64,000 nt of DNA, from contig NZ_FZOO01000010.1 in the NCBI RefSeq assembly GCF_900188375.1, positions 1 through 64,000 on the forward strand, read 5' to 3'. This DNA is from Geodermatophilus pulveris (lineage in GTDB: Bacteria > Actinomycetota > Actinomycetes > Mycobacteriales > Geodermatophilaceae). A program made the translations under genes and the position numbers. Position 1 is the stretch's first letter. Every line of letters starts with the position of its first letter. The notes beneath the pieces were generated by a model. The model searched no databases. It was given only the letters and a program-made list of their open reading frames with translations, and had not been told where the DNA came from. Shown in pieces: positions 2,031 to 19,820 of this stretch.

Positions 2031-2918
2031 CTACAGGCCGACGGCGGTGATGAGGTCGTCGAGCTCGGCCAGGGTCAGCTCGTCGACCGGCGGGGCCGGG
2101 AAGCGGGCGTGCGGCGAGGCGATGGCGCCGCGGCGGGCGAAGACCTGCTTGCGGATGGTCACCCCGCCGACGCCGAGCTGGGCCTCGTACCGGATGAGCG
2201 GCAGGTAGCGGAAGAAGAACTCCTGCGCGCCCGCGCGGTCGCCGGCGGCGAACCGCTCGTAGGTGCCGACGAGCACCTGCGGGAAGCCGAAGCCGGTCAT
2301 GATGCCGTCGGCGCCGCGCTGCAGCTCCTCGTACAGGTACAGCCCGCCGAGGCCGCCGAAGACACCGACCGGCTCCTCCACCCGCTGCTTCACCGCGGTG
2401 ATCTTCGGCAGGGTCGGGGTCTCCTCGAGCTTGAGGTAGCGGCAGCCCTCGATCTCGTCGAGCAGCCGCACGAGGAACGGCGCGGGCATGACCACCCCGG
2501 TGTTGACCGGCTCGTCCTGCACCACGACCGGCACCGACAGCGCCTCGGCGACCTGCCGGAAGTGCTCGAAGACCAGGTCCAGGTTCCGGGTGTTCTCCGG
2601 CGGGGCGAGCATGACCGCCGCGGCGCCGGCGTCCTCGGCGCGTCGGGCGTAGTCCAGCGCCATCACGGTGGCCCGCGCCGAGACGCCGGCCACGACCGGC
2701 ACCCGCCCGGCGGTGGCCTGCAGGTAGCGGCGCAGCACCCGCTCGCGCTCCTCGTCGAGCAGCTTGGCGGCCTCACCCATGATTCCCAGGATGGTGAGGC
2801 CGTGCGCCCCGGCGCCGAGGTAGTCCTCGACCAGGGTGTCGATGCTGCCCTCGTCGACCGCGCCGTCGTCGGTGAACGGCGTCAGTGTGATCGGCAGCAC
2901 ACCCGTCAGGGCGCTCAC
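2031..2918 (-). CDS. DapA/NAL-family aldolase, non-canonical active site
   Basis: A 295-aa TIM-barrel protein of the dihydrodipicolinate synthase / N-acetylneuraminate lyase family. The Schiff-base lysine lies in YLKLEETPTLPK and the GxxGE strand is present as GIMGEAAKL. Two family hallmarks differ: the T-T pair after GxxGE is missing, and the YNxP tyrosine motif is replaced by QDEPVNTG. It is therefore unlikely to be a true DapA. GTG start at 2918. It heads the minus-strand run with the FAH protein and SDR, and is divergent from the L-2-hydroxyglutarate oxidase gene across 118 bases. Confidence 0.85.
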   Translation of the reverse strand: MSALTGVLPITLTPFTDDGAVDEGSIDTLVEDYLGAGAHGLTILGIMGEAAKLLDEERERVLRRYLQATAGRVPVVAGVSARATVMALDYARRAEDAGAAAVMLAPPENTRNLDLVFEHFRQVAEALSVPVVVQDEPVNTGVVMPAPFLVRLLDEIEGCRYLKLEETPTLPKITAVKQRVEEPVGVFGGLGGLYLYEELQRGADGIMTGFGFPQVLVGTYERFAAGDRAGAQEFFFRYLPLIRYEAQLGVGGVTIRKQVFARRGAIASPHARFPAPPVDELTLAELDDLITAVGL

Positions 2919-3036: not shown

Positions 3037-4248
3037 ATGTCGGTGCAGCGTTACGCCGTGGTCGGGGGCGGGATCATCGGGACGGCGGTGGCCCGCCGGC
3101 TGCTCGCCCGGCGGCCCGACGCCGTGGTGACGGTCCTGGAGAAGGAGGACCGGCTCGCCACCCACCAGACCGGCCGCAACTCCGGGGTGGTGCACGCCGG
3201 CCTGTACTACGAGCCCGGCTCGCTCAAGGCCCGGCTGTGCCGCCGCGGGGTGGGGCTGCTCAAGGAGTTCTGCGCCGAGCGGGGCCTGCCCTACGACGAG
3301 GTGGGCAAGGTGCTGGTCGCGCTCGACGGGGCCGAGGAGCAGCGGCTGGGCGCGATCGCCGAGCGGGCCCGCGCCAACGGCGTCCCCGGCATCCGGGTCA
3401 TCGACCGCGCGGAGCTGCGCGAGCTGGAGCCGCACGTCGCCGGCATCGCCGCGCTGCACTCGCCGAGCACCGCGATCTGCGACTACGTGTCGGTCACCGA
3501 CCGGCTCGCCGACGACGCCCGCGCGGCCGGGGCGACGATCCGCACCGGCTTCGCGGTGGCCGGGCTGCGGCACACCGGCGGGCAGGTCGTCGTGAGCAGC
3601 ACGGCCGGCGAGGAGGTCGTCGTCGACCGGGTGGTGCTGTGCGCCGGGCTGCAGGTCGACCGGCTGGCGCGGCTGGCCGGGGACGACGACGCCCCGCGGA
3701 TCGTGCCCTTCCGCGGGGAGTACTACGCGCTCACCCCGGACAAGCGGTCCCTGGTCAACGGCCTGGTCTACCCGGTGCCCGACCCGCGGTACCCGTTCCT
3801 CGGGGTGCACCTGACCCCGCGGTTCGACGGCGAGGTGCTGGTCGGCCCCAACGCCGTCCTGGCGCTGGCCCGCGAGGGCTACACGTGGCGGGACGTCTCC
3901 CCCGCCGAGCTGGCCGCCATCGTCCGCTTCCCCGGGTTCCGGCGGTTCGCCCGGCAGCACTGGCGCACCGGCCTGGCGGAGATGCGCGGGTCGCTGTCGA
4001 AGAAGGCGTACACGGCCGCGGCGCGGCGGTACGTGCCGGAGCTGACCGCCGACGACATGGTCCCGGCGGTGGCGGGGATCCGCGCGCAGGCGCTGGAGTC
4101 CGACGGCAGCCTGGTCGACGACTTCCGGATCACCCGGCGCGGCGCGGTGGTGGCCGTGCGCAACGCGCCCTCGCCCGCGGCGACGTCGTCGCTGGCGATC
4201 GCCGAGCACCTGGTCGAGGTGCTGCTCGACGACGACGACGCGGCATGA
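3037..4248 (+). CDS. lhgO: L-2-hydroxyglutarate oxidase
   Basis: A 403-aa FAD-dependent oxidoreductase of the DAO fold. The dinucleotide-binding motif VVGGGIIGTAVARRL sits at the N-terminus, followed by the family signature THQTGRNSGVVHAGLYYEPGSLKA, here split as TGRNSGVVHAGLYY and PGSLKA. The C-terminal GIRAQAL and DDFRI motifs also match LhgO. Such enzymes oxidise L-2-hydroxyglutarate to 2-oxoglutarate and pass electrons to the quinone pool. ATG at 3037 is preceded by ACGGAGAGCC. The stop overlaps the ATG of the following MFS gene (ATGA), so the two are almost certainly co-transcribed. Confidence 0.9.
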   Translation: MSVQRYAVVGGGIIGTAVARRLLARRPDAVVTVLEKEDRLATHQTGRNSGVVHAGLYYEPGSLKARLCRRGVGLLKEFCAERGLPYDEVGKVLVALDGAEEQRLGAIAERARANGVPGIRVIDRAELRELEPHVAGIAALHSPSTAICDYVSVTDRLADDARAAGATIRTGFAVAGLRHTGGQVVVSSTAGEEVVVDRVVLCAGLQVDRLARLAGDDDAPRIVPFRGEYYALTPDKRSLVNGLVYPVPDPRYPFLGVHLTPRFDGEVLVGPNAVLALAREGYTWRDVSPAELAAIVRFPGFRRFARQHWRTGLAEMRGSLSKKAYTAAARRYVPELTADDMVPAVAGIRAQALESDGSLVDDFRITRRGAVVAVRNAPSPAATSSLAIAEHLVEVLLDDDDAA

Positions 4249-8393: not shown

Positions 8394-9275
8394 TCAGCCG
8401 GGCAGCCCGCGCAGCACCTCCAGCGCCTCGGCCAGCGTGGCCGGCACCTCGCCGGGCGCCCGGCCGCTGAGCTCCAGCCCCCGGGCGGTGCGCTCCTGGC
8501 GGGCCACCAGGGCCGCGGCCATGAGCGGCGGCACGCCGGTGGCCGCGACGGTGTCGCGCACCATCCGCGCCTCGACCTGCCGGCGGCCGGCGTGCGCGAC
8601 GTGCGTGGTGACCAGCATCGTGGCGAAGTCGCGGGTGGGCCAGCGGTCCAGCGTCTCCTCCACCATCGCCAGCAGCGGCTCGACCACGTCCATCTCGTGC
8701 GCGGCCAGCAGCGCCTCGGTCCACAGCGCCTCCATCCCCTTGACCACCACGCTCCGCAGCATCTTCAGCGCCGCCGCGGCGCCCACCCGGTCGCCGACGA
8801 CCGCGGCGTTGAGCCCGGCCGCGGCCAGCAGCCCGGCGGCCTCCGCGGCGTCCGGCCCGGCCAGCGAGACGGGGATGCGGCTGCCGTCGAGCCGGATGCC
8901 CCCGCCGGTCATCACCCCGTCGACGACGCGGGCGCGGGGCAGCGCGGCGACCACGGCCTCCTTGACCTGCGGCGCGGTCGAGTTGAGGTCGACGTAGAGC
9001 ACGCCGTCACCGGCCGCCGGGGCGAACGCCTCGGCCGCGGCCAGCGCGGTGGCCGGGGTGACCAGGGAGAGGACGACGTCCCGCCCGGCCAGGCCGGCGA
9101 GGTCACCGACCGGCTGCGCGCCCGCCGCGCGCACCGCCTCGGCGACGCCGGGGCCGCGCGACGGGTCTCGCAGCAGCCGGTCGTGCACCGCCAGGTCGGC
9201 GCCGGAGGCGGCCAGCGCGCCGCCGATGACCCGGCCGGCCTCGCCGAAGCCGACCAGCCCCCACCGGGTGGTCAC
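8394..9275 (-). CDS. NAD(P)-dependent dehydrogenase, DUF1932 type
   Basis: A 293-aa member of the 6-phosphogluconate / 3-hydroxyisobutyrate dehydrogenase superfamily. The N-terminal Rossmann motif is GLVGFGEAGRVIGG, and the C-terminal helical half (MLRSVVVKGMEALWTEALLAA) matches DUF1932. GTG at 9275 overlaps the RraA stop by 4 bases, which fixes the start. As the last gene of the eight-gene TRAP operon it probably oxidises a beta-hydroxy acid intermediate. Relatives pair with RraA-like or Ldh-like proteins in hydroxy-acid catabolic clusters, but the substrate is not evident. Confidence 0.85.
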   Translation of the reverse strand: MTTRWGLVGFGEAGRVIGGALAASGADLAVHDRLLRDPSRGPGVAEAVRAAGAQPVGDLAGLAGRDVVLSLVTPATALAAAEAFAPAAGDGVLYVDLNSTAPQVKEAVVAALPRARVVDGVMTGGGIRLDGSRIPVSLAGPDAAEAAGLLAAAGLNAAVVGDRVGAAAALKMLRSVVVKGMEALWTEALLAAHEMDVVEPLLAMVEETLDRWPTRDFATMLVTTHVAHAGRRQVEARMVRDTVAATGVPPLMAAALVARQERTARGLELSGRAPGEVPATLAEALEVLRGLPG

Positions 9276-9943
9276 GGCGCCACCCGCACCTCGGTGAGCG
9301 CCGCGGTCACCCACGAGCGGTCCAGCGTGCCGGCCGCGATGTCGGCGAACACCGCCTCCTCGGCCCGCAGCAGCCCCTCGCCGTCCGCGAGCACCTCCGC
9401 GGCGCGCTCGTGCGGGACCACCACCACGCCGTCCGCGTCGCCGACGACGACGTCACCGGCGCGCACCACCGTGCCGCCGGCCTGCACCGCCCCGCCGACC
9501 TCCCCCGGGCCGTCCTTGTACGGGCCGACGTGGGTCACGCCGCGCGCGAAGACCGGCAGGGCGCCCGCGGCCAGCCCCTCGACGTCGCGCACCGCGCCGT
9601 CCACGACCAGGGCGGCCAGCCCGCGGGCGGCGGCGTAGCGGGCCATGATCTCCCCCAGCACCGCCCGGTCCAGCGCACCGCCGCCGTCGACGACGAGCAC
9701 GTCGCCGGGCCGGGCGAGGTCCAGGGCGCGGTGGACGACGAGGTTGTCGCCGGGGCGGGTGCGCACGGTCAGCGCCGGGCCGGCGACCCGCGGCCAGCGC
9801 CCGCCCGGCACGGGCAGCACGCCGGTGACGCCGCCGGTGCGGGCCAGGGCGTCGGACAGGATGCTCGTCGGCAGCGCGCGGGCCCGGGCCAGCAGGCCGT
9901 CGTCGGGGCGGGGGCCGGGCGGGTGCACTCGGCAGGTGCTCAT
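9272..9943 (-). CDS. RraA-family protein (HMG aldolase / oxaloacetate decarboxylase-like)
   Basis: A 223-aa RraA/MenG-fold protein. Motifs include VVDGGGALDRAVLGEIMARYAAARG split over strand and helix, VVDGAVRD (the arginine-aspartate pair of the aldolase active site) and VVVGDADGVVVVP. Family members cleave 4-hydroxy-4-methyl-2-oxoglutarate or decarboxylate oxaloacetate with Mg; others bind RNase E. Its operon context favours the enzymatic role. The second methionine (9943), preceded by CTGAGGAG at good spacing, is chosen over one at 9973 that would overlap the MFS gene by 20 bases. Confidence 0.85.
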   Translation of the reverse strand: MSTCRVHPPGPRPDDGLLARARALPTSILSDALARTGGVTGVLPVPGGRWPRVAGPALTVRTRPGDNLVVHRALDLARPGDVLVVDGGGALDRAVLGEIMARYAAARGLAALVVDGAVRDVEGLAAGALPVFARGVTHVGPYKDGPGEVGGAVQAGGTVVRAGDVVVGDADGVVVVPHERAAEVLADGEGLLRAEEAVFADIAAGTLDRSWVTAALTEVRVAP

Positions 9944-9953
9944 GCGGGACTCC

Positions 9954-11180
9954 TCAGGTCGGGTCGAGGACACGGGCGCGCCGGCCCACCGGCAGGCCCC
10001 GGGAGCGGCGCACCATCCGGCGGCTGACCCGGACGGTGACCGCGCCGGCCAGGCTCAGCGCCGCGGCGGTGAGCCAGGCGGCGGAGTAGGAGGCGGCCTC
10101 GGCGACGACGCCGAACAGCAGCGGCCCGGACGCCGCACCCAGCGACAGCCCGGTCTGCACGGAGCCGGTGACCGACGCCGCCGCGCCCCGGTTGTCGCGG
10201 ATGACGGCGAAGTGGAACAGGCCGGTCCACGCCCAGCCGGCGCCGTAGGCGAGCACGCCGCCGGCGACGAAGGCCGGCACCGCCCCGACGGCCATGAGCG
10301 CGTAGCCCAGCGTGCCGAGGGTCAGCAGGTTGGCGATGAACAGGTAGGCGCTGCGGGCCGGGTGCCGGTCGACGAACATCCCGTACCCGACCCGGCTGGC
10401 CAGGCCGAGCACCGAGCAGCCGGCGAACAGCAGCCCGGCCGCCCCGGCGCCGACACCGGCGGCCACCGCGGAGTCGACGAGGAAGACCCCGGTCGGGGTG
10501 GCCGCGGCCGAGCCGAGGAAGCCGCCGAGGGTGAGCACCACCAGCCCGCCGCGGGGCAGCCCCCGGTCCGGCGCGCGGGCCCCGGCGGCCTCGCGCGCCG
10601 CGGCGGCCCGCTGACCGGCCTCCCGGCCGGCGAGGGAGGCCAGCAGCAGGAGCAGCGCCAGGGCGACCGCGCCGGCCACCGCCCACCGCCAGCCGGCCAC
10701 CAGCGCGATGCCGGGGACGGCGAGGCCGCCGAGCAGGGTCGCCGCGGGGATCGAGGACTGCTTGATGCCGAACGCGACGCCCAGCCGCGCGTCGGTGACC
10801 AGCTCGGAGACGACCGCGTTGGCCGACGGCTGGGCGACCGCGTTGCCCAGCCCGCCGACCGCCAGCCCGGCCATCAGCGCGGCCGGCGACCCGGCCAGGC
10901 CGATCACGGTGAGCGACGTGGTGGCCAGGGCGGCGGCCAGCGCGGCCCCGCGGCGCGAGCCGAGCCGCTGCACCAGCCGGCCGGCGGGGCGGGCGAGGGC
11001 GCCGGAGACGGCGAACAGGGTCGCCGCCGCGAGGCCGAACAGGCCCAGCCCGACGTCGAGGTCGGCGCGGATCTGCACGGCGAGCGCGCCGACGAGGAAG
11101 GCCGGCAGCACCCCGAGCGCGGAGACCGACACCGCCCGGACGACGGCGCGCGCGGCCCCGCCCCCGTCCACGCCCGTCAC
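9954..11180 (-). CDS. MFS transporter, paralogue of the 4245-5471 protein
   Basis: A 408-aa, roughly 12-helix MFS protein, GTG start at 11180. It shares GVLPAFLVG, GGLGNAVAQPSANAV and FGIKQSSIPAATLLGG with the MFS protein next to lhgO, so the two derive from one family serving related substrates. It lies 10 bases upstream of the RraA gene and 48 bases downstream of the fused dehydrogenase. The operon thus carries two unrelated transporters, TRAP and MFS; one may move the substrate and the other an intermediate or analogue. Confidence 0.85.
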   Translation of the reverse strand: MTGVDGGGAARAVVRAVSVSALGVLPAFLVGALAVQIRADLDVGLGLFGLAAATLFAVSGALARPAGRLVQRLGSRRGAALAAALATTSLTVIGLAGSPAALMAGLAVGGLGNAVAQPSANAVVSELVTDARLGVAFGIKQSSIPAATLLGGLAVPGIALVAGWRWAVAGAVALALLLLLASLAGREAGQRAAAAREAAGARAPDRGLPRGGLVVLTLGGFLGSAAATPTGVFLVDSAVAAGVGAGAAGLLFAGCSVLGLASRVGYGMFVDRHPARSAYLFIANLLTLGTLGYALMAVGAVPAFVAGGVLAYGAGWAWTGLFHFAVIRDNRGAAASVTGSVQTGLSLGAASGPLLFGVVAEAASYSAAWLTAAALSLAGAVTVRVSRRMVRRSRGLPVGRRARVLDPT

Positions 11181-11228: not shown

Positions 11229-13397
11229 TCAGGCACGCGCGGGCACCCCGAGCGGCCGGCCGACGTGCCCGGCCAGCTCCTGCAGCGCCCGGTGCGTGCC
11301 GGCGTCGAGGGGGACGCCGTGGACGCGGCGCAGCGCGCGCTCGGCGGCGGCCCGCTGTCCCGGCGTCCGGACCGGCCGCTCCGGGTCGACCGGGGCCAGC
11401 GCGCGCAGCCCGGCGAGCAGGCGCGCGGCCCCCGCGCTCAGCTCGGCGGGGTCGCCGAGGCGGCCCGGGTCCAGGACGACGACCAGGTGGCTGACGCCGG
11501 GGTGCCCGCTCCCGGCCCGGAAGGTCAGGTTCCCCACGCCGGGGCCGGTGGGGCCGCGGCCGAGCACGGCGGTGAGCACCTCGACCAGCAGGGCCAGCCC
11601 GTAGCCCTTGTGCACCGACCGCTCGCGGTCGCTGCCCAGCGGCAGCAGCGCGCCGCGGCCGGGGAAGACGGCGGCCGGGTCGGTCGTCGGGCGCCCGTCG
11701 GCGTCCACGCCCCAGCCGAGCGGGACCGGGCGGCCGGCCCGCAGCGCGATCTCGAACTTGCCGGCGGCGACCGCGGAGGTGGCCATGTCGAACACCATGG
11801 GCTTCTCCCCCGCCACCGGCACGCCGAGGGCGAGCGGGTTGGTGCCCAGGTACGGGCGGGCGCCGCCGGCGGGGGCGACGACCGGGCCGGTGTTGGTGGC
11901 GGCCAGCCCGACCAGCCCCTGCGCGGCCGCCTCGAACACGTAGGCGCCGCTGGCGCCGTGGTGGCTGCTGTCGCGCACGTTGACCCACCCGACCCCGTGC
12001 TCCCGGGCCCGGTGCACCGCCTCGGCCAGCGCGAGGGTGGTGACCGGGTGGCCGAGCAGCCCGTGCCCGTCGACCAGCGCGACCGCGCCCTCGCCGCTCA
12101 CCGTGGGCTCGCCGTCGGTGGCGATCGCCCCGGCCCGCACCCCGCGCACGTAGGCGGGCAGCCGGGCGACGCCGTGGGAGTCGATGCCGGACAGGTCGGC
12201 GTAGCCGAGGACCCGCGCCACGTCGCCGGCGTGCTGGCGGCGCACCCCGACGGCGGTCAGGACGGCGGTGGTCCACCCGGCCAGCACGTCGGCCGGCACC
12301 CGCACCGGCGGCTCCTCGACGGCCACCGGTACGGCGGGCCCCCCGGCGTCGTCGAAGGCGGCCAGCACCGCGTCGGCGACCGCGCCGGTGGGCGCCGGCG
12401 GGGTGCCCTCCGGCGCCAGGTCGTAGGTCCACGGGCCGCCCTGCAGCACCCGGTCGACCGCCGCCCGCACCCGGTCGCCGAGCGCGCGGGTGGCCGGGAA
12501 GTGCCGCAGCAGCGCGGCCAGGGCCAGGAAACCGCCGAGCGGGTCGACCTGGCCGCGCAGCGCCCGGCGCGGCGCCGACCCGTGCGCCGGCTCGAACAGC
12601 CCGACGCAGCGGCCGCGGACCGGCTCGCCGGGGTGCACCGAGGCCGAGCCGCACAGCGCCGGCGACCCCGCCCGCCCGGCGGCCAGGTCGGAGAGGATGT
12701 CGCCGAGCAGCCCCTCGGTGACCAGCACGTCGGGCACCGCGGCGCCGGAGCCGAGCTCGTAGGCGGCGCGGTCGACGTAGCGGTGCTCGACGTCGACGCC
12801 GCGCTCGCGGGCCACCTCGCCGGCGACCTGCCGCCACAGCCGGCCGGTGACGTACAGGTTGGCCTTGTCGACCGAGACCAGCCGCCCCGCCACACCGGAC
12901 CGGGCGGAGCGCTGGGCGAGCACGTCGCAGGCGGTGTGCACCACCTCGGCGATCCGCCGGCGGGTCAGCCGGAGCACGTCGGCCGCCTCGTCCTCGCCGA
13001 GCCACCGGTCGTCGGCGCCGCCGTAGGAGCCGCCGATGAGGTTGCGCACCACGGTCAGCTCGGTGCCGTCGCGGAACGGGACGTCGCGCACGGAGATCCG
13101 CAGGTCGTAGCGCTCGCGCAGCCGGTGCAGCGCGACCTCCGGGCGCGGGCACACCCCGTCCGGCACGCGCGGGTCCTCCCCCACCGCGCCGAGCAGGACG
13201 GCGTCGGCGGCGTCGCAGGCGGCCAGCGTCTCCGCGGGCAGCACGTCGCCGGTGGCCGCCGCGGCGCGGGCGCCGACCGGCCAGGGCCCGGTGACCTCGA
13301 CCGCGCCGTCGGCGGCCAGCCGCCGCAGCAGCCGGGCCGGCCCGTCGAGCACCTCCTCGCCGATGCCGTCCCCCGGCAGCAGGGCGACCCGGATCAC
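11229..13397 (-). CDS. Fused isopropylmalate-DH-like / Ldh-family dehydrogenase
   Basis: A single 722-aa open frame joins two unrelated NAD(P)-linked enzymes. Residues 1-350 are LeuB-like: ALLPGDGIGEE at the start, RNLIGGSYGG, SVDKANLYVTGRLWRQV near 175-191, DILSDLAAG, and GLFEPAHGSAP near 267-276. Residues 366-722 are an Ldh-family (malate/L-lactate/ureidoglycolate) dehydrogenase: GYADLSGIDSHGVARLPAYV, RDSSHHGASGAYV near 475-487, GTNPLALGVP, and KGYGLALLVEVL. A short Pro/Val-rich linker joins them. GTG at 13397 overlaps the DUF6282 stop by 4 bases. Both halves retain family motifs, so a bifunctional enzyme for two oxidation steps is likely; substrates are unknown. Confidence 0.85.
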   Translation of the reverse strand: MIRVALLPGDGIGEEVLDGPARLLRRLAADGAVEVTGPWPVGARAAAATGDVLPAETLAACDAADAVLLGAVGEDPRVPDGVCPRPEVALHRLRERYDLRISVRDVPFRDGTELTVVRNLIGGSYGGADDRWLGEDEAADVLRLTRRRIAEVVHTACDVLAQRSARSGVAGRLVSVDKANLYVTGRLWRQVAGEVARERGVDVEHRYVDRAAYELGSGAAVPDVLVTEGLLGDILSDLAAGRAGSPALCGSASVHPGEPVRGRCVGLFEPAHGSAPRRALRGQVDPLGGFLALAALLRHFPATRALGDRVRAAVDRVLQGGPWTYDLAPEGTPPAPTGAVADAVLAAFDDAGGPAVPVAVEEPPVRVPADVLAGWTTAVLTAVGVRRQHAGDVARVLGYADLSGIDSHGVARLPAYVRGVRAGAIATDGEPTVSGEGAVALVDGHGLLGHPVTTLALAEAVHRAREHGVGWVNVRDSSHHGASGAYVFEAAAQGLVGLAATNTGPVVAPAGGARPYLGTNPLALGVPVAGEKPMVFDMATSAVAAGKFEIALRAGRPVPLGWGVDADGRPTTDPAAVFPGRGALLPLGSDRERSVHKGYGLALLVEVLTAVLGRGPTGPGVGNLTFRAGSGHPGVSHLVVVLDPGRLGDPAELSAGAARLLAGLRALAPVDPERPVRTPGQRAAAERALRRVHGVPLDAGTHRALQELAGHVGRPLGVPARA

Positions 13398-14245
13398 CGC
13401 AGCACCAGCTCGCGGCCGACGGTGGTCAGCGCCCGCTCGGTGCCGGCCTCGCCCAGGCAGGCCTCCAGCTCGGCCAGCCAGCCGGGCAGGGCCTGCGCCA
13501 TGGTCGGGTGGTCGGCGTGGCCGAGGTCGCCGCCGAAGGCGAGCTGGTCGTGCGGGTAGACCTCGCCCAGCGTGGTCGAGCGCGGCCCGTCGGGGGTGAG
13601 GATGTCGGGCAGGATGCCGAGCTCCAGCACCACGCCGAGCCGGGCGAACTCCGGGGCGGCGGCGTCGTCCCAGTGCAGGAACGGCATCCGCGGGTGGTTG
13701 AGCAGCATCCGGCGCACCCCGGCGGCGTGCGCGGCGCGGAACAGCACCAGCGCCTCCGCGCAGGTGAGGTGGCCGGAGGCGAGCACCAGGTCGTGGGCGG
13801 CGACCACGTCGAGGACCTCCTGCCAGGCGGGCAGCAGGGCGCCGTCGTCGGCGAGCACGTCGACCTGCCGGAAGGACAGCGAGCGGTGCACCGCCAGCTC
13901 GGGGCGGGCCGCCGACGCGACGTGCGCGGGCGCGGAGACCGTCGGCATCCACACCACGCGCCCGCCGAGCCGGGCGGCCACCTCCACCGCGTCGGGGTTG
14001 GCGCCGCCGACCGGGGAGTTGAGCACGATGCCGCCGAGCACCTGCACGCCGCCGGTCTCCGCCCGCCCGGCGGCCAGGGCGGCGCGCTCGGCGGTGGACC
14101 CCTCGTGCGCCTTGAGGACGGCGAGGTCGATGCCGACCCGGGCGTGCGCGCCGACCACCTCGTGGTCGGCGCCGTGCCGGGGCACCAGGCTGGGTGACCC
14201 GTGCACGTGCAGGTCGGCGACGCCGGAGACCAGGAGCGGACTCAC
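13394..14245 (-). CDS. DUF6282-family metal-dependent hydrolase
   Basis: A 283-aa amidohydrolase-fold protein. The metal-site HxH appears as ADLHVHGSPSLVPRHGAD near the N-terminus. Further conserved elements are the lysine in LAVLKAHEGST, GGIVLNSPVGGANP, ASGHLT and LLNHPRMPF. It resembles the DUF6282 family, whose reaction is not known to me. Start and stop overlap both neighbours (GTGA with the TRAP permease upstream, GTGA with the fused dehydrogenase downstream), so translation is probably coupled and the protein belongs to the same pathway. Confidence 0.8.
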   Translation of the reverse strand: MSPLLVSGVADLHVHGSPSLVPRHGADHEVVGAHARVGIDLAVLKAHEGSTAERAALAAGRAETGGVQVLGGIVLNSPVGGANPDAVEVAARLGGRVVWMPTVSAPAHVASAARPELAVHRSLSFRQVDVLADDGALLPAWQEVLDVVAAHDLVLASGHLTCAEALVLFRAAHAAGVRRMLLNHPRMPFLHWDDAAAPEFARLGVVLELGILPDILTPDGPRSTTLGEVYPHDQLAFGGDLGHADHPTMAQALPGWLAELEACLGEAGTERALTTVGRELVLR

Positions 14246-16464
14246 CGCTCCGTCCGCGGCCGCTCGGCCGCCGTGGCGCCGGCCACGGGGGGCGCCGTGG
14301 AGGCGGGCACCGGCCGGGTGGTCGTGGCGTCGTCGGCCTCCGCCGGCGTGCCGGTGCCCGTGCCGCCGGCGGTGTCGCCGCGGCGGCGGGTGAGCAGGTG
14401 CACGACCAGCCCGGCGACGGCGAACCCGGCGCCGACGGCGATGAGCGTCGGCGTCATGACCAGCAGCGCGATCGCCGCGACGAGGAACAGCAGCCGCTCG
14501 GGGACGCGGGCCGGGCCGAACAGCCAGGCACCGGTGACCACCGCCAGGGAGGCGACGGCGACGACGGACGTGACGAAGGCGATCAGCACCGTCTCGGTCC
14601 CGCCCTCGAACAGCAGGCCCACGCCCCGCGGGGACAGCACGAAGATGAACGGCACGAGGAACGCCGGCAGCGTGTACTTCCAGGTCAGCCACATGGTCTT
14701 GACCGGTTTGCCGCCGGTGATGGCCGCCGCGGCGAACGGCGAGAGCGCCGTCGGCGGGGAGACCTCGCTGAGCACCGCGTAGTAGAAGATGAACATCGCC
14801 GCGGCGAACGGCTCCACGCCCACCTGCTGCAGCGCCGGGGAGATGACGACGAACGAGATGATGAAGCTCGCCGTCACCGGCACGGCCAGGCCGAGCAGGA
14901 TGACCACCACCGCGGAGAAGACGGCGGTGAGGACGACGTTGCCGTTGGCGAAGTCGACGATGATCCCGGCCAGCCGCAGCGCCAGCCCGGTCAGGGTCAT
15001 GACGCCGACGATGATGCCGGCGACGGCCATGACCGGGATGACCGACAGCGCGCCGGTCGCGCCCGCGGCGAGCGCGTCCCAGAACCGCCGCGGCGTGATC
15101 CACGACCGCCGCTCCAGGAAGCTGAGCAGGAACGCCAGCACGGTGGCGTAGACCACCGAGCGGAAGGGCGTGTAGCCCAGCGCCAGGAAGACCACGATCG
15201 CGGCCAGCGAGGAGAAGTGGTAGCCGAAGCGCAGCAGCAGCTTGCCCGCCGACTGGGTCTGCATCTCCACGGTGTGCGTGCCGTGCCGGCGGGCGTCCAT
15301 CTCGATGGCCAGGACGATGCCGAGGTAGTACAGGATCGTCGGGATCGTCGCCCAGACGAGCACCTCGAGGTAGGAGACCTGCAGCAGCTCGGCGATGATG
15401 AACGCCGCCGCGCCCAGGGTCGGCGGGGACATGATCGCGCCGATGCCGGCGGCCGCCAGCACGCCGCCGCCGGCCTCCTTGGGGTAGCCGGCCTTCTTCA
15501 GCAGCGGCCAGGAGATGCCACCGAGGGTGACGGTGGTGGCCACGCCCGAGCCGGACACCGTGCCCAGCAGGAAGCCCGACAGCGTCACGGTGCGGCCCGG
15601 CCCGGCCGGGGACTGCCCGAAGGCGGCGAAGGACAGGTCGATGAAGAAGCGGGTGGCGCCCGAGGCGGCCAGGACGGCGCCGTAGATGGTGAACAGGATG
15701 ATGTAGGTGGCGGCGACCTCCAGCGGCGTGCCGAAGATGCCCTGGGTGCCCATGACGTTGTGCCCGACCAGCCGCGGCCAGCCGAAGTTCGCGGTGGTGA
15801 ACGGCGAGGGCATGAACGAGCCCCAGTACGCCGAGGCGATGAACAGCAGGACCACGATCGGGACGAGCACGCCGACGGTGCGCCGCGCCGCCTCCAGGAC
15901 CAGCAGGATGAGCAGCGTGCCGATCAGCAGGTCGGTATCGGTGGGCAGGATCGCCCGCCGGAAGAAGCCCTGCCAGTCCGAGACCATGTAGACGGCGGGC
16001 ACGAGCGAGGTGAGGGCCAGCAACCAGTCGAGGACGTTGGGGTGGTCCCGCTTGCCGGCCTCCTTGGCCTTGGCCGAGCGCGGCCAGCCGCGGTAGGTCA
16101 GGAAGGTCAGGAACAGGCCGAGGGAGAGGAACGTCGGCAGGTACACCTGCCGGGGCATCGGGTTGAACACCCAGTAGAGGGCGAACAGCGACAGCCCGAC
16201 GCCGACCACCGAGGTCACCCAGCTCGGCCAGCCGGTGAGGTGGCGGGCCGGCTTCTCGGCCTCGAACTCCGCGATCAGCGCCTCCTGGTCGATCCGGTCG
16301 GGGTCGTCGACCGGGTCGGCGTCGGGCCGCTTGTCGAGGGTGGCGACGTCGAGGACCCCGCCCTGCCGGTGCGCGGCGGCGTGGGCGGTCCGGTGCGCAC
16401 TGCTGTGGGCCCGCTCGTCCTCGGCGGTGCGGGTGCGCGGGCGGCCGGGCAGCTTGATCTTCAT
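14242..16464 (-). CDS. TRAP transporter fused permease (DctQM-type)
   Basis: A 740-aa membrane protein in which the small 4-helix and large 12-helix TRAP permease subunits are fused, the usual form for TAXI-type systems. The N-terminal ~90 residues are a charged cytoplasmic lead. Large-subunit motifs include SGFLLGTVSGSGVATTVTLGG and ASFIISFVVISPAL. With the TAXI-type binding protein and the DUF1850 protein it forms a sodium-driven uptake system for an organic acid. Its ATG overlaps the DUF1850 stop by 4 bases. Confidence 0.9.
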   Translation of the reverse strand: MKIKLPGRPRTRTAEDERAHSSAHRTAHAAAHRQGGVLDVATLDKRPDADPVDDPDRIDQEALIAEFEAEKPARHLTGWPSWVTSVVGVGLSLFALYWVFNPMPRQVYLPTFLSLGLFLTFLTYRGWPRSAKAKEAGKRDHPNVLDWLLALTSLVPAVYMVSDWQGFFRRAILPTDTDLLIGTLLILLVLEAARRTVGVLVPIVVLLFIASAYWGSFMPSPFTTANFGWPRLVGHNVMGTQGIFGTPLEVAATYIILFTIYGAVLAASGATRFFIDLSFAAFGQSPAGPGRTVTLSGFLLGTVSGSGVATTVTLGGISWPLLKKAGYPKEAGGGVLAAAGIGAIMSPPTLGAAAFIIAELLQVSYLEVLVWATIPTILYYLGIVLAIEMDARRHGTHTVEMQTQSAGKLLLRFGYHFSSLAAIVVFLALGYTPFRSVVYATVLAFLLSFLERRSWITPRRFWDALAAGATGALSVIPVMAVAGIIVGVMTLTGLALRLAGIIVDFANGNVVLTAVFSAVVVILLGLAVPVTASFIISFVVISPALQQVGVEPFAAAMFIFYYAVLSEVSPPTALSPFAAAAITGGKPVKTMWLTWKYTLPAFLVPFIFVLSPRGVGLLFEGGTETVLIAFVTSVVAVASLAVVTGAWLFGPARVPERLLFLVAAIALLVMTPTLIAVGAGFAVAGLVVHLLTRRRGDTAGGTGTGTPAEADDATTTRPVPASTAPPVAGATAAERPRTER

Positions 16465-17099
16465 CGCTCGATCTCCAGTAGCACGGTGGCGTCCTCGCCG
16501 GTCACGAGCCGCCAGATCGGGACGGGCTCGGCGCCCGGGGTGTACAGGGTGCGCTCACCCAGGTCGGTCGCGGCGATGTTCAGTCGCTCGAAGACGGCCG
16601 GCCGGGCCGGGTCGGGCTCGGCCACGTGGTCCAGGCGGTCCCCGGGCGGCGCCGGGCGGGGCGCCCCGGGGACGGCGTAGTACTCCTCGAGGACGGCCAC
16701 CTGCTCGGCGGCCAGCTGCTCGAGCGCGAAGCGGCCGTCGGGCAGCACACGGTACCGCTCCTCGGCGAGGGTCGTGTAGACGCTGTTGCGGTAGCCGACG
16801 GCGAACCCGTCCCCGGTCAGCGGGACGCTGGCGACGACCTCGCCGTCCGGCGTCCGGACGACGACCGCCGGCCCGCCGTCGGTGGCCGTGGCCGTGGCCG
16901 TGGTCACGGCCACCCCGGCGCCCACGAGCACGGCCACCACCAGCAGGGCCTCCACCAGCACGACGGCCGCCCCCGGCAGCACGGTGGCGGGCCACCGGGT
17001 GCCGCGGCGGGGGGCCGGACGTCGGCGGGTGGGCGGGGCGTCGGCCGACGTGCCGCCGGGGCCCGCGGTGCGGACCCCGGACCCCGACGGCACGACCAC
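16461..17099 (-). CDS. DUF1850 protein, TRAP-associated
   Basis: A 212-aa protein with a cytoplasmic Pro/Arg-rich start, one membrane segment (about residues 38-65, GAAVVLVEALLVVAVLVGAG) and an extracytoplasmic DUF1850 domain opening at TPDGEVVASVPLTGDGFAVGY, with IWRLVTGEDATVLLEIE at the end. DUF1850 proteins are regularly encoded between TAXI binding proteins and fused TRAP permeases; their function is not established. GTG start at 17099, 29 bases after the binding-protein gene. Confidence 0.8.
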   Translation of the reverse strand: MVVPSGSGVRTAGPGGTSADAPPTRRRPAPRRGTRWPATVLPGAAVVLVEALLVVAVLVGAGVAVTTATATATDGGPAVVVRTPDGEVVASVPLTGDGFAVGYRNSVYTTLAEERYRVLPDGRFALEQLAAEQVAVLEEYYAVPGAPRPAPPGDRLDHVAEPDPARPAVFERLNIAATDLGERTLYTPGAEPVPIWRLVTGEDATVLLEIER

Positions 17100-17128: not shown

Positions 17129-18136
17129 TCAGCTCACCGAGTCGAAGTAGGCCTGCGCGCCGGGGCAGGTCTCGATGAAGCCGACCTCGCCGGCGGTGGC
17201 CGGGTCGAGCTCTGCGGCCGCCGGGTGGACGGTGAGCAGCTGCTCCTGGTTCTCGAAGATCGTCCGCGTGATGTCCTCCTGCAGCTGCTCGTCCATGTCG
17301 TTGCGGACGACGAGGATGTTGGGCGAGACGACCTGCGGGGAGGCCTCGGGCTGGCCCTCGTAGGTGTCGGCCGGGATCTCGTCGGCGAAGTAGTAGTCGC
17401 CGTACTGCTCGGCCATCGCGTCGGCGTACTCCCCGGTCGGGATGAGCACCAGGTCGGCGTTGTTGGCCAGCTCCACGATCGCGCCGGTGGGCAGGCCGCC
17501 GGACCAGAAGCCGGCGTCGACGGTGCCGTCCTGGATCGCCGCGACGGTCTCCGCGACCCCGAGCTGGGCGCGCTCGATGTCGGCCTGCGGGTCCAGCCCG
17601 GCCGCCTGCATGATGCGGTCGGCGGTGACCTCCGAGGCCGACCCGACCGCGCCGGGCGACACCCGCCGGCCGCGGAGGTCCTCGATCGTGGTGATGCCGG
17701 TGGCGGCGGTCGTGAAGACGTGGGTGAAGTTGTTGTAGATGTTGCCGAGGGAGCAGACGGGCAGCGGCTCGGTGAAGGTGTTCTCCCCGTTGACCGCGTC
17801 GGCCACGACGTCGCCGAGGGCGAAGGCCATCTGCGCCTGGCCGGAGGCCAGCAGCTGCATGTTGTCCACCGAGGCGTTGGTCTCCTGGACGGTGACCGTC
17901 GTCCCCTCCAGCTCCGAGCTCAGCAGGTTGGCGATGCCGCCGCCGTAGGGGTAGTAGACGCCGCCGGTGCCGCCGGTGGCGAACGTGAGCGGCCCGCCGG
18001 GCGCGGCGGCCTCGCCACCGCCGGCCCCGCCGCCGCCGGAGTCACCCCCGCCGCAGGCGGTGAGCAGGAGGGCTGCGGCCAGGCCGGTGCCGAGCAGGCG
18101 CCGGACCGGGCGGGGGGAGTTCGGGCTGGAGGTCAT
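17129..18136 (-). CDS. TAXI-family TRAP solute-binding lipoprotein
   Basis: A 335-aa periplasmic-type binding protein. A signal peptide ends in the lipobox LLTACGGG (Cys 28), followed by a Gly/Ser linker. TAXI-family motifs: FATGGTGGVYYPYGGGIANLL, TNASVDNMQLLASGQAQMAF, RVSPGAVGSASEVTADRIM. It delivers the substrate to the fused permease. It is the first gene of the minus-strand operon and is divergent from the GntR regulator gene across 178 bases that carry an inverted repeat. Confidence 0.9.
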   Translation of the reverse strand: MTSSPNSPRPVRRLLGTGLAAALLLTACGGGDSGGGGAGGGEAAAPGGPLTFATGGTGGVYYPYGGGIANLLSSELEGTTVTVQETNASVDNMQLLASGQAQMAFALGDVVADAVNGENTFTEPLPVCSLGNIYNNFTHVFTTAATGITTIEDLRGRRVSPGAVGSASEVTADRIMQAAGLDPQADIERAQLGVAETVAAIQDGTVDAGFWSGGLPTGAIVELANNADLVLIPTGEYADAMAEQYGDYYFADEIPADTYEGQPEASPQVVSPNILVVRNDMDEQLQEDITRTIFENQEQLLTVHPAAAELDPATAGEVGFIETCPGAQAYFDSVS

Positions 18137-18233
18137 CGTCGGCCTTCCTGGTGCGTGCGGTCGGGCGCCCCGGGCCGGGGTCCTCCTGGAGGCGCGGGGC
18201 CCGGGACCCGGACGGTCGCCAGCGAGTGAAGCA

Positions 18234-18275
18234 GGTCACAAGATCCCTTGTCTACTGTTTACGATCCGTGTGACC
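18234..18275. promoter_or_regulatory. Inverted repeat, candidate GntR operator/promoter region
   Basis: GGTCACA at 18234-18240 and TGTGACC at 18269-18275 form perfect 7-bp inverted arms. Between them lies AT-richer DNA with TTGTCTACTGTTTAC, similar in style to FCD-type GntR half-sites. The block sits between the divergent TAXI operon and the GntR gene, so it could control both. Assignment is inferred from position and symmetry. Confidence 0.45.
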
Positions 18276-18314
18276 ATTCCGTTGCGCGCCGACCCGGGAG
18301 GTGGAGATCCGAAG

Positions 18315-19061
18315 GTGGCCCGGCCTGAGCACATCACCGCCGTCCCGCTGCGCGAGCACGTCTACGGGCGGCTGCAGGAGCTGTTGATCGCCCGCGCCCT
18401 GGCCCCCGGTGACCACCTCGTCGAGGAGCGGCTGGCCGCCGAGCTGGGGGTCAGCCGCGGCCCCGTGCGCGAGGCGCTGCAGCGGCTGCACCGCGACGGC
18501 TGGATCACGCTGCGGCCGCGCCACGGGGCCTTCGTCAACCAGCCGACCCGCCGCCAGGTCGAGGAGTTCTTCGAGACCCGGGAGCTGGTGGAGCGCTCCG
18601 CGGCGGAGCTGGCCGCGCAGCGGTGCACGCCGGAGGACGCCGCGGCGCTGCTGGCCATCTGCGACGAGGCCGACGCCGACTGGGTGCGCGGCGTGCCCAC
18701 CCAGCAGATGGCCGGGCACACCGCGCGCTTCCACCGCACCGTGCTGCTGTGCGCGCGCAACCACCTGCTGCTGGAGTTCGGCGAGCAGCTCTCCCAGCGC
18801 AGCCGCTGGTTCTTCGCCCCGCTGGTCGGGGCCATCGCCCCGCGGGCGTGGGCCGAGCACCGCGAGGTCGCCGAGCTGATCGCGGCCGGCCGGACCCGGG
18901 AGGCCGCGGAGGCGATGCGCGTGCACGTCGAGGAGTCCCGCGACTCCTACCTGGACACCCAACTGGTCGCCGACACCCCGTCGGAGCCGGTGGCCCTCCG
19001 CCGCACCCGCGCGCCGTCGGGCTCGCGGGCCGCCCCCCTCCCCCGAGCACAGGAGACCTGA
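18315..19061 (+). CDS. GntR-family (FCD) transcriptional regulator
   Basis: A 248-aa regulator. The winged helix-turn-helix covers about residues 8-75 (LVEERLAAELGVSRGPVREALQRL, here in two adjoining parts, then HGAFV), and a helical FCD ligand-binding domain follows. Metal-binding histidines of FCD domains are plausible in TARFHRTVLL and in AEHREV. GTG at 18315 is chosen because GGAGGTGGAG lies just upstream; an earlier in-frame GTG at 18269 lies within the inverted repeat. It probably represses the divergent TRAP operon until an organic acid is bound. Confidence 0.9.
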   Translation: MARPEHITAVPLREHVYGRLQELLIARALAPGDHLVEERLAAELGVSRGPVREALQRLHRDGWITLRPRHGAFVNQPTRRQVEEFFETRELVERSAAELAAQRCTPEDAAALLAICDEADADWVRGVPTQQMAGHTARFHRTVLLCARNHLLLEFGEQLSQRSRWFFAPLVGAIAPRAWAEHREVAELIAAGRTREAAEAMRVHVEESRDSYLDTQLVADTPSEPVALRRTRAPSGSRAAPLPRAQET

Positions 19062-19820
19062 GTGGACGCTGGACGGATCGTGCTGGTGACCGGCGCCTCG
19101 AGCGGCATCGGCCGGGCCTGCGCCGAGGCGTTCCTCGCCGAGGGCGCCCGGGTGGTCGCCGCCGCGCGGCGCACCGAGCGGCTGGCGGACCTGCAGGCCG
19201 CGCACGGGGACGCCGTGCTGCCGCTGACCCTGGACGTCCGGGACCGCGCCCAGGTCACGGCCGCGCTGGGCTCGCTGCCCGCGGAGTGGACGCCCATCGA
19301 CGTGCTGGTCAACAACGCCGGGCTGGCCGCCGGCCGCGGGCCGGTGCACACCGACGACCCCGACGACTGGGACCGGATGCTGGACACCAACGTCCGCGGC
19401 CTGCTCAACGTCTCGTCCTGCGTGCTGCCCGGCATGGTGGAGCGCGGGGCCGGGCACGTGGTCAACATCGGCTCCAACGCCGGCCGCGAGGTCTACCCCG
19501 GCGGCACGGTGTACTGCGCGACCAAGGCCGCCGTCGAGCGGATCACCCGGGGCATGCGGATGGACGTCCTCGGCAGCGGCGTCCGGGTCAGCCAGGTCGA
19601 CCCCGGGATGGTGGAGACCGAGTTCTCCCTCGTCCGCTTCGGCGGCGACGAGGCCCCGGCGAAGGCCGTGTACGAGGGGCTCACGCCCCTGTCGGCGGCG
19701 GACGTCGCCGAGGTGGTCACCTGGATCGCCAACCGCCCGCCGCACGTCGTGATCGCCGACGTCCTGGTGTACCCGCTGGACCAGGCCGGCTCCGGGAAGG
19801 TGGCCCGCCGCGGCTCCTGA
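19062..19820 (+). CDS. SDR oxidoreductase, YdfG-like
   Basis: A 252-aa classical SDR. TGASSGIGRA lies near residues 9-18, NNAG near 84, the catalytic serine in NIGSNAGREV, and YCATK supplies Tyr and Lys. The pattern VYCATKAAVERITRGMRMD and the C-terminus resemble YdfG / serine 3-dehydrogenase proteins, which oxidise 3-hydroxy acids (L-allo-threonine, 3-hydroxypropionate). GTG start abuts the GntR stop (TGA|GTG), so the two are co-transcribed. It likely acts on a pathway intermediate of the TRAP cluster. Confidence 0.85.
   Translation: MDAGRIVLVTGASSGIGRACAEAFLAEGARVVAAARRTERLADLQAAHGDAVLPLTLDVRDRAQVTAALGSLPAEWTPIDVLVNNAGLAAGRGPVHTDDPDDWDRMLDTNVRGLLNVSSCVLPGMVERGAGHVVNIGSNAGREVYPGGTVYCATKAAVERITRGMRMDVLGSGVRVSQVDPGMVETEFSLVRFGGDEAPAKAVYEGLTPLSAADVAEVVTWIANRPPHVVIADVLVYPLDQAGSGKVARRGS

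Follow-up and report, generated by a model that had tools for sequence, protein, structure and literature searches.

Relation to described tandem dehydrogenases

The aldehyde-alcohol dehydrogenases AdhE and BdhE are fusions with known activities, and the structures of BdhE have been solved; genomic neighbouring of separate genes is reported to underlie the fusions (PMC12454647). The fused gene of Geodermatophilus pulveris analyzed here resembles AdhE and BdhE in carrying two unrelated dehydrogenases in tandem, and separate neighbouring genes are found for its two families as well, but it differs from these fusions in its families and its chemistry. Tandem fusions of dehydrogenases have thus been described before, and what is new here is the combination of two known families. 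The initial annotation knew of no described fusion of a LeuB-like with an Ldh-family enzyme, and likewise no description of an Iso_dh-Ldh_2 fusion was found in the papers searched. One open frame holds two complete and conserved enzyme families in an operon context, and the association of Iso_dh, Ldh_2, and RraA genes recurs. In the following, the window is the whole stretch of 64,000 nucleotides that was analyzed (NZ_FZOO01000010.1, positions 1 to 64,000), the family is Geodermatophilaceae, and the genus is Geodermatophilus.

Domain structure and conservation of the fusion protein

The fused gene is located on the minus strand at positions 11229..13397, begins with GTG, and encodes 722 amino acids followed by a stop codon, within a stop-to-stop frame of 1074 codons. 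Coordinates, strand, and length were all given correctly in the initial annotation. The gene has a GC content of 80%, and its 5' end overlaps the end of a DUF6282 gene by 4 bases. Only two Pfam families are detected in the protein (E 0.001), and the proposed domain check for these two returned scores far above the cut-offs. The Iso_dh domain comprises residues 4–331 (12405..13388, minus strand; PF00180, 179.6 bits versus a cut-off of 27) and is complete, covering profile positions 2–336 of 348; the Ldh_2 domain comprises residues 368–705 (11283..12296, minus strand; PF02615, 357.4 bits versus 38.8) and is equally complete, with profile positions 2–332 of 333. Comparison with solved structures using phmmer matched residues 3–354 to 1v5b, a 3-isopropylmalate dehydrogenase (E 3.4e-46), and residues 360–713 to 1v9n, a malate dehydrogenase (E 4.2e-58), the nearest solved relatives being isopropylmalate dehydrogenases for the N-terminal half and malate/lactate-type dehydrogenases for the C-terminal half. 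Pfam and phmmer thus split the protein alike, in agreement with the earlier proposal of two unrelated dehydrogenase families in one polypeptide. When the predicted structure is divided into blocks of ten residues, the mean pLDDT exceeds 80 in 33 of the initial 35, which cover the Iso_dh half, and is mostly below 60 in the poorly modeled Ldh_2 half, because only two Ldh_2 rows were present in the model's alignment.

The full-length open fusion was found in 20 of 112 family genomes, representing 5 of 12 genera, with 75–100% identity; within the genus, 9 of 26 genomes carry it. All 20 orthologues start with GTG at residue 1, and the junction contains no stop codon in any of them. Two possibilities that had been raised against the fusion, a stop and start hidden between the halves and homologues that are always two separate genes, are excluded by these unbroken frames and by this occurrence in the family. 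When the 20 proteins were aligned, invariant positions made up 65% of residues 1–100, 48% of 101–200, and 68% of 201–300, decreasing to 40% at 301–335, 29% at 336–352, and 13% at 353–367, before rising again to 38% at 368–380, to 48, 57, and 53% in the blocks spanning 381–660, and to 45% at 661–722. The least conserved stretch lies in a variable linker at approximately residues 349–367 (12297..12353, minus strand), whose length around residues 349–363 ranges from 15 to 32 residues across the orthologues. Median dN/dS relative to the gene of the window (19 pairs) was 0.30 for the Iso_dh half, 0.32 for the Ldh_2 half, and 0.67 for residues 332–367, values in which dS derives from DNA with 99% GC at third positions and which are compared only with each other. 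Together, the conservation and dN/dS patterns look like those of two functional domains connected by a flexible tether.

The Iso_dh half

The kinship of the N-terminal half was analyzed in a midpoint-rooted tree. It contained 40 Iso_dh rows of the contig search, sampled from 80 that had been chosen by likeness to the query. The half clusters with Escherichia coli LeuB and with 33 of these 40 rows (support 0.983), whereas DmlA and Icd of E. coli and the Iso_dh genes of Tct clusters fall outside this group. The best-scoring curated model is also that of LeuB, but the score remains below its cut-off (TIGR00169, 172.6 versus 353.2), as it does for a second LeuB model (PRK03437, 129.2 versus 393) and for tartrate dehydrogenase (TIGR02089 TTC, 103.3 versus 470.4). 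By comparison, five of five sampled rows of the contig search pass the LeuB model. A different gene of the host genome passes PRK03437 (555.2 versus 393), two further genes pass the tartrate dehydrogenase model, and the isocitrate dehydrogenase model is also passed by another gene, indicating that the fusion is none of these enzymes. The half was therefore rejected as the LeuB of leucine synthesis, given its TIGR00169 score and the separate LeuB-passing gene. The earlier description of this half as LeuB-like holds with regard to kinship and does not extend to identity with LeuB.

In an alignment with E. coli LeuB, DmlA, and Icd as well as YiaK, AllD, and HcxB, in which three of the 20 fusions were displayed, residues Arg-94, Arg-104, Arg-118, Lys-178, Asp-209, Asp-233, and Asp-237 are present and align with LeuB and DmlA; these arginine, lysine, and aspartate positions correspond to the catalytic set of Thermus thermophilus LeuB. 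Three differences from the E. coli enzymes are seen. The GSAPD motif of LeuB and DmlA reads GSAPR, the (S/T/E)NLFGD motif reads TEGLLGD and lacks its asparagine, and the segment after Arg-104 is shortened. The first two changes are shared by stand-alone relatives and thus mark a subfamily. These relatives are four Iso_dh proteins (L148–L151), each from a different genome of the order or class, that are 46–50% identical to the N-terminal half and have in common with it the motifs SVDKA(N/S), TEGL(L/F)GD, and GS(A/S)P(R/H)R as well as a DUF6282 neighbour. Unlike the fusion, they are not joined to an Ldh_2 domain, and the surrounding stretches of 6 to 19 kb gave no match to this family either. 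In the Iso_dh superfamily, a basic residue replacing the aspartate of GSAPD points to NADP, and E. coli Icd has a lysine at this position in our alignment. The exchange of GSAPD for GSAPR, read with structural knowledge of the superfamily, suggests that the Iso_dh half may perhaps prefer NADP.

The Ldh_2 half

The C-terminal half contains the motifs SHGVAR (407), SSHHG (477), DMATS (537), and HKGYG (596), which are presumably catalytic. Its scores fall short of the cut-offs for L-sulfolactate dehydrogenase (NF040650, 208.5 versus 500), malate/lactate/ureidoglycolate dehydrogenase (PRK10098, 206.8 versus 336), and AllD (TIGR03175, 174.4 versus 496.2). As neither half of the protein reaches an NCBIfam equivalog cut-off, the substrates cannot be read from kinship. 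In the tree, the fused Ldh_2 halves group with two Ldh_2 genes of the genus (L147 and L152) with a support of 1.0. A search of viral contigs found no relative of this half.

Operon and flanking genes

Directly upstream of the fusion is the gene for the DUF6282 family protein (13394..14251, minus strand, start uncertain; PF19799, 203.6 bits), preceded on the same strand by a TRAP transporter fused permease (14242..16464; TIGR02123, 457.6 bits versus 320.65), a 212-amino acid protein with no Pfam match (16461..17099), and a TAXI-family solute-binding protein (17129..18136; TIGR02122, 266.3 bits versus 84.35). On the plus strand beyond these lie a divergent GntR/FCD regulator (18180..19061, start uncertain; PF00392 and PF07729 in a search on the ORF 17967–19061) and a short-chain dehydrogenase (19062..19820; PF00106). 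Downstream of the fusion, on the minus strand, are the directly adjacent MFS transporter (9954..11180; PF07690), an RraA-like aldolase family protein (9272..9973; PF03737, 146.9 bits; PRK06201, 250.5 versus 231), which passes only an unnamed subfamily model, and an oxidoreductase with a DUF1932 domain (8394..9314, start uncertain; PF09130, 42.4 bits in a search on 8394–9242). The proposed operon with a TRAP transporter, here of the TAXI type, and an RraA protein is thus supported. Further away are a gene for an L-2-hydroxyglutarate oxidase of the LhgO family (3037..4248, plus strand; NF008726, 542.5 bits versus 299) and one for a DHDPS-family protein (2031..2918, minus strand; PF00701, 106.3 bits, under the DapA cut-off).

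The TAXI protein, the TRAP permease, and the downstream MFS transporter are present at all 19 other fusion loci, and DUF6282, RraA, and DUF1932 each at 18 of the 19, the RraA match being partial in L137. The L-2-hydroxyglutarate oxidase gene was found at 17 and the DHDPS-family gene at 15 of the 19 loci, the remaining stretches ending too early to include them; both are only possible members of the pathway. One locus (L141, genome G032) consists only of the TAXI protein, the small gene, the TRAP permease, the fusion, and the MFS transporter, lacking DUF6282 and DUF1932, and no RraA match was found anywhere in its genome. Since this locus keeps the transporter and the fusion, RraA is not an obligate partner and an aldolase step is not obligatory. 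The 212-amino acid gene between the TAXI protein and the TRAP permease is kept at all 19 other fusion loci.

Distribution and origin

Wider samples of the order (397 genomes at 1e-60), class (394 at 1e-58), and phylum (296 at 1e-50) contained no fusion outside the family at these strict cut-offs, under even sampling with mostly two or three candidates scored per genome, a design that may overlook fusions that are rare or more divergent. The 18 matches in the order sample were 15 family fusions and three genomes of one other family with Iso_dh alone; the three in the class sample were two family fusions, including that of the window, and one genome (G782) with Iso_dh alone; and the nine in the phylum sample were the window's own fusion and eight genomes with Ldh_2 alone. 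A widespread occurrence of the fusion in bacteria was rejected on these grounds. The search for the same architecture in other actinobacteria that had been proposed finds it in 20 of 112 family genomes and at none of the sampled places outside, and the pairing is, as far as sampled, seen in one bacterial family. No fusion was present among 80 of the 203 loci of a genome-contig search, from which near kin of the window were perhaps excluded, and none of 636 matching plasmid records had one place spanning 80% of the query; both families fell under one match in 1 of the 40 plasmid matches listed.

The four Iso_dh-only genes of other genomes each follow a DUF6282 gene, and together with the N-terminal half of the fusion they form one clade with a support of 1.0. 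In the simplest scenario, an Iso_dh linked to DUF6282 would have acquired its Ldh_2 partner in this family, and the fusion itself probably arose by loss of a stop codon between adjacent genes.

Unfused pairings of the same families

The host genome has two Ldh_2 genes, counting that of the fusion, six Iso_dh genes, and two RraA genes; each of the Ldh_2 and RraA genes is accompanied by an Iso_dh gene. On host contig C6, Ldh_2, Iso_dh, and RraA occur as separate genes near TctA, TctB, and TctC. If random gene order is assumed, the chance that each Ldh_2 gene falls no more than 5 kb from any of the six Iso_dh genes is about 2e-4, a value that serves as a rough guide. Across the genus, 19 unfused Ldh_2 places in 18 loci were surveyed, and an Iso_dh gene lies within 5 kb in 15 of the 18 loci. 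TctA and TctC are carried by 14 of these 15, with RraA in 13 of the 14 and the stretch of the fourteenth ending with its contig. The 14 Tct loci probably represent one inherited cluster and hence not 14 independent events. Like the fusion locus, the TctABC cluster of the genus places the Ldh_2, Iso_dh, and RraA families beside a carboxylate transporter; unlike it, the genes are separate, Ldh_2 and Iso_dh are divergent, and both the subfamilies and the transporter type differ. The Tct clusters (L153–L155 and L187–L197) hold Ldh_2, an Iso_dh of another subfamily, and a tripartite tricarboxylate transporter.

An archaeal tandem has the two genes in the order of the fusion. On a plasmid of Halorussus limi (NZ_CP096661.1, M0R89_RS21375 and RS21370), an Iso_dh gene is followed by an Ldh_2 gene, both confirmed with Pfam, and in the corresponding locus (L164:11494-13656) Iso_dh ends at 12555 and Ldh_2 begins at 12556 in the same frame. 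It differs from the fusion in being two genes of an archaeon and of other subfamilies (31% and 35% identity). The Halorussus Iso_dh is near tartrate dehydrogenase, with a TTC score of 467.2 versus a cut-off of 470.4, and the Iso_dh of the unfused pair of the host genome (L172) reaches no cut-off among the models listed. As the Iso_dh genes of Halorussus and of the Tct clusters belong to other subfamilies, the association either arose more than once or is old. It is not general, since no Iso_dh was found near the unfused Ldh_2 in 3 of the 18 genus loci (L152, L198, and L199) and none was annotated within 8 kb of the plasmid Ldh_2 genes of Streptomyces canus and Methylobacterium currus. Locus L052 was rejected as an informative pair, consisting of a LeuB-passing gene and two Ldh_2-like genes with other genes between them. 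The Halorussus tandem adjoins a mandelate racemase-family gene.

Proposed function

We favor, at somewhat better than even confidence, a predicted role of the protein as a bifunctional catabolic tandem dehydrogenase for imported hydroxy-di/tricarboxylates. The TAXI-TRAP transporter would import a di- or tricarboxylic acid carrying a hydroxyl group. As a β-decarboxylating dehydrogenase, the N-terminal Iso_dh half would produce a 2-oxo acid by oxidation and decarboxylation of a malate-type unit. The C-terminal Ldh_2 half would likewise form a 2-oxo acid, in its case by oxidizing a 2-hydroxy acid, and the two together would yield a 4-hydroxy-2-oxo acid from the imported compound. A β-decarboxylating dehydrogenase can give 2-oxo-4-hydroxy acids from a 3-substituted malate with an extra hydroxyl group, and a 2-hydroxy acid dehydrogenase can do likewise. 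RraA, and perhaps also the DHDPS-family protein, would then cleave the 4-hydroxy-2-oxo acid to pyruvate, and the fusion would hold the two activities at a 1:1 ratio. From sequence and gene context we infer that both halves are active, together with the cofactor, the order of the steps, the substrate class, and the aldol cleavage. Gene fusions strongly point to linked steps. Genes of an operon need not act in sequence. More speculatively, and less likely than not, Iso_dh and Ldh_2 may constitute a recurrent, unrecognized two-enzyme unit for imported hydroxy-di/tricarboxylates, present as separate genes with RraA near Tct transporters and as adjoining genes in a haloarchaeon. In this family the unit would be fused into one enzyme with an Iso_dh part of an uncharacterized subfamily, such that the product of one active site would be passed directly to the second in an undescribed route.

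The main rival is that the halves act in parallel, each oxidizing one of two compounds or stereoisomers, such as an R- and an S-hydroxy acid, delivered by the same transporter, with the reactions meeting at one 2-oxo acid. We regard this as a serious though less likely option. Unfused pairs join Ldh_2 with different Iso_dh subfamilies, one near tartrate dehydrogenase in Halorussus and another in the host genome (L172), and Iso_dh relatives use D-malate-type substrates and Ldh_2 relatives S-2-hydroxy acids, which would fit parallel use. Nothing speaks directly against it, but a 1:1 fusion would be less needed for parallel reactions.

A start within the fused gene might, in addition, produce the Ldh_2 half alone, which is unlikely and would be compatible with the other readings. 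A GTG codon is present at residue 365 or 367 in 19 of the 20 orthologues, at both positions in the gene of the window, and by raw count a string resembling GGAG or GAGG occurs within 17 bases 5' of it in 14 of the 20. Such purine-rich strings are, however, common in DNA of 80% GC, one orthologue has neither GTG, and the fusion is made in any case. An internal start could not replace it, because the frame never closes.

Somewhat less likely again is a redox-neutral pair, in which NAD(P)H made by the Iso_dh half along with a 2-oxo acid would be spent by the Ldh_2 half in reducing the same or another 2-oxo acid, with net non-oxidative decarboxylation as the outcome. Some Ldh_2 enzymes are reductases, YiaK being annotated as 2,3-diketo-L-gulonate reductase, and a fusion would couple the cofactor; the presence of another 2-hydroxy-acid oxidase, LhgO, in the conserved flank would instead favor oxidation if LhgO is part of the pathway. 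The consecutive oxidation of one hydroxy-dicarboxylate that had been suggested initially fits no better than parallel use or a redox-neutral pair.

The absence from the Iso_dh half of the asparagine of (S/T/E)NLFGD and the aspartate of GSAPD could indicate that one half has lost catalysis and serves as a structural or regulatory partner. This is improbable, as the remaining presumed catalytic residues are retained in both halves, dN/dS is similar in both, and the stand-alone relatives carry the same two changes as subfamily marks. An assembly or sequencing error that conceals a stop codon is ruled out for practical purposes by the open fusion in 20 family genomes, and nothing was found in its favor.

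The fusion ties the uncharacterized Iso_dh subfamily, Ldh_2, DUF6282, DUF1932, and the RraA-like protein to one uptake operon. Annotation of these families often goes no further than 'Ldh family oxidoreductase' or 'isocitrate/isopropylmalate family dehydrogenase', and an assay of this one gene could settle the chemistry of both.

DUF6282 in other genomes

DUF6282 was detected in 28 of the 108 family genomes searched, 19 with the fusion and nine without it, and hence does not depend on the fusion for its occurrence. No match was found in five genomes of other groups, an uninformative sample, and nothing on DUF6282 was found in the papers searched. Among plasmids, the neighbours of DUF6282 differ between the six records inspected of 31. 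On Thermus oshimai plasmid pTHEOS01 (L180:6962-9996), DUF6282, PIG-L, an RraA-type aldolase, and a DUF1932 oxidoreductase are arranged in a row. The RraA protein of this row passes the model for 4-carboxy-4-hydroxy-2-oxoadipate aldolase/oxaloacetate decarboxylase (PRK09262, 193.9 versus 179) and fails a second model of the same activity (TIGR02798, 180 versus 304.5). The row, which may reveal the role of DUF6282, stands near ring-cleavage genes of aromatic degradation.
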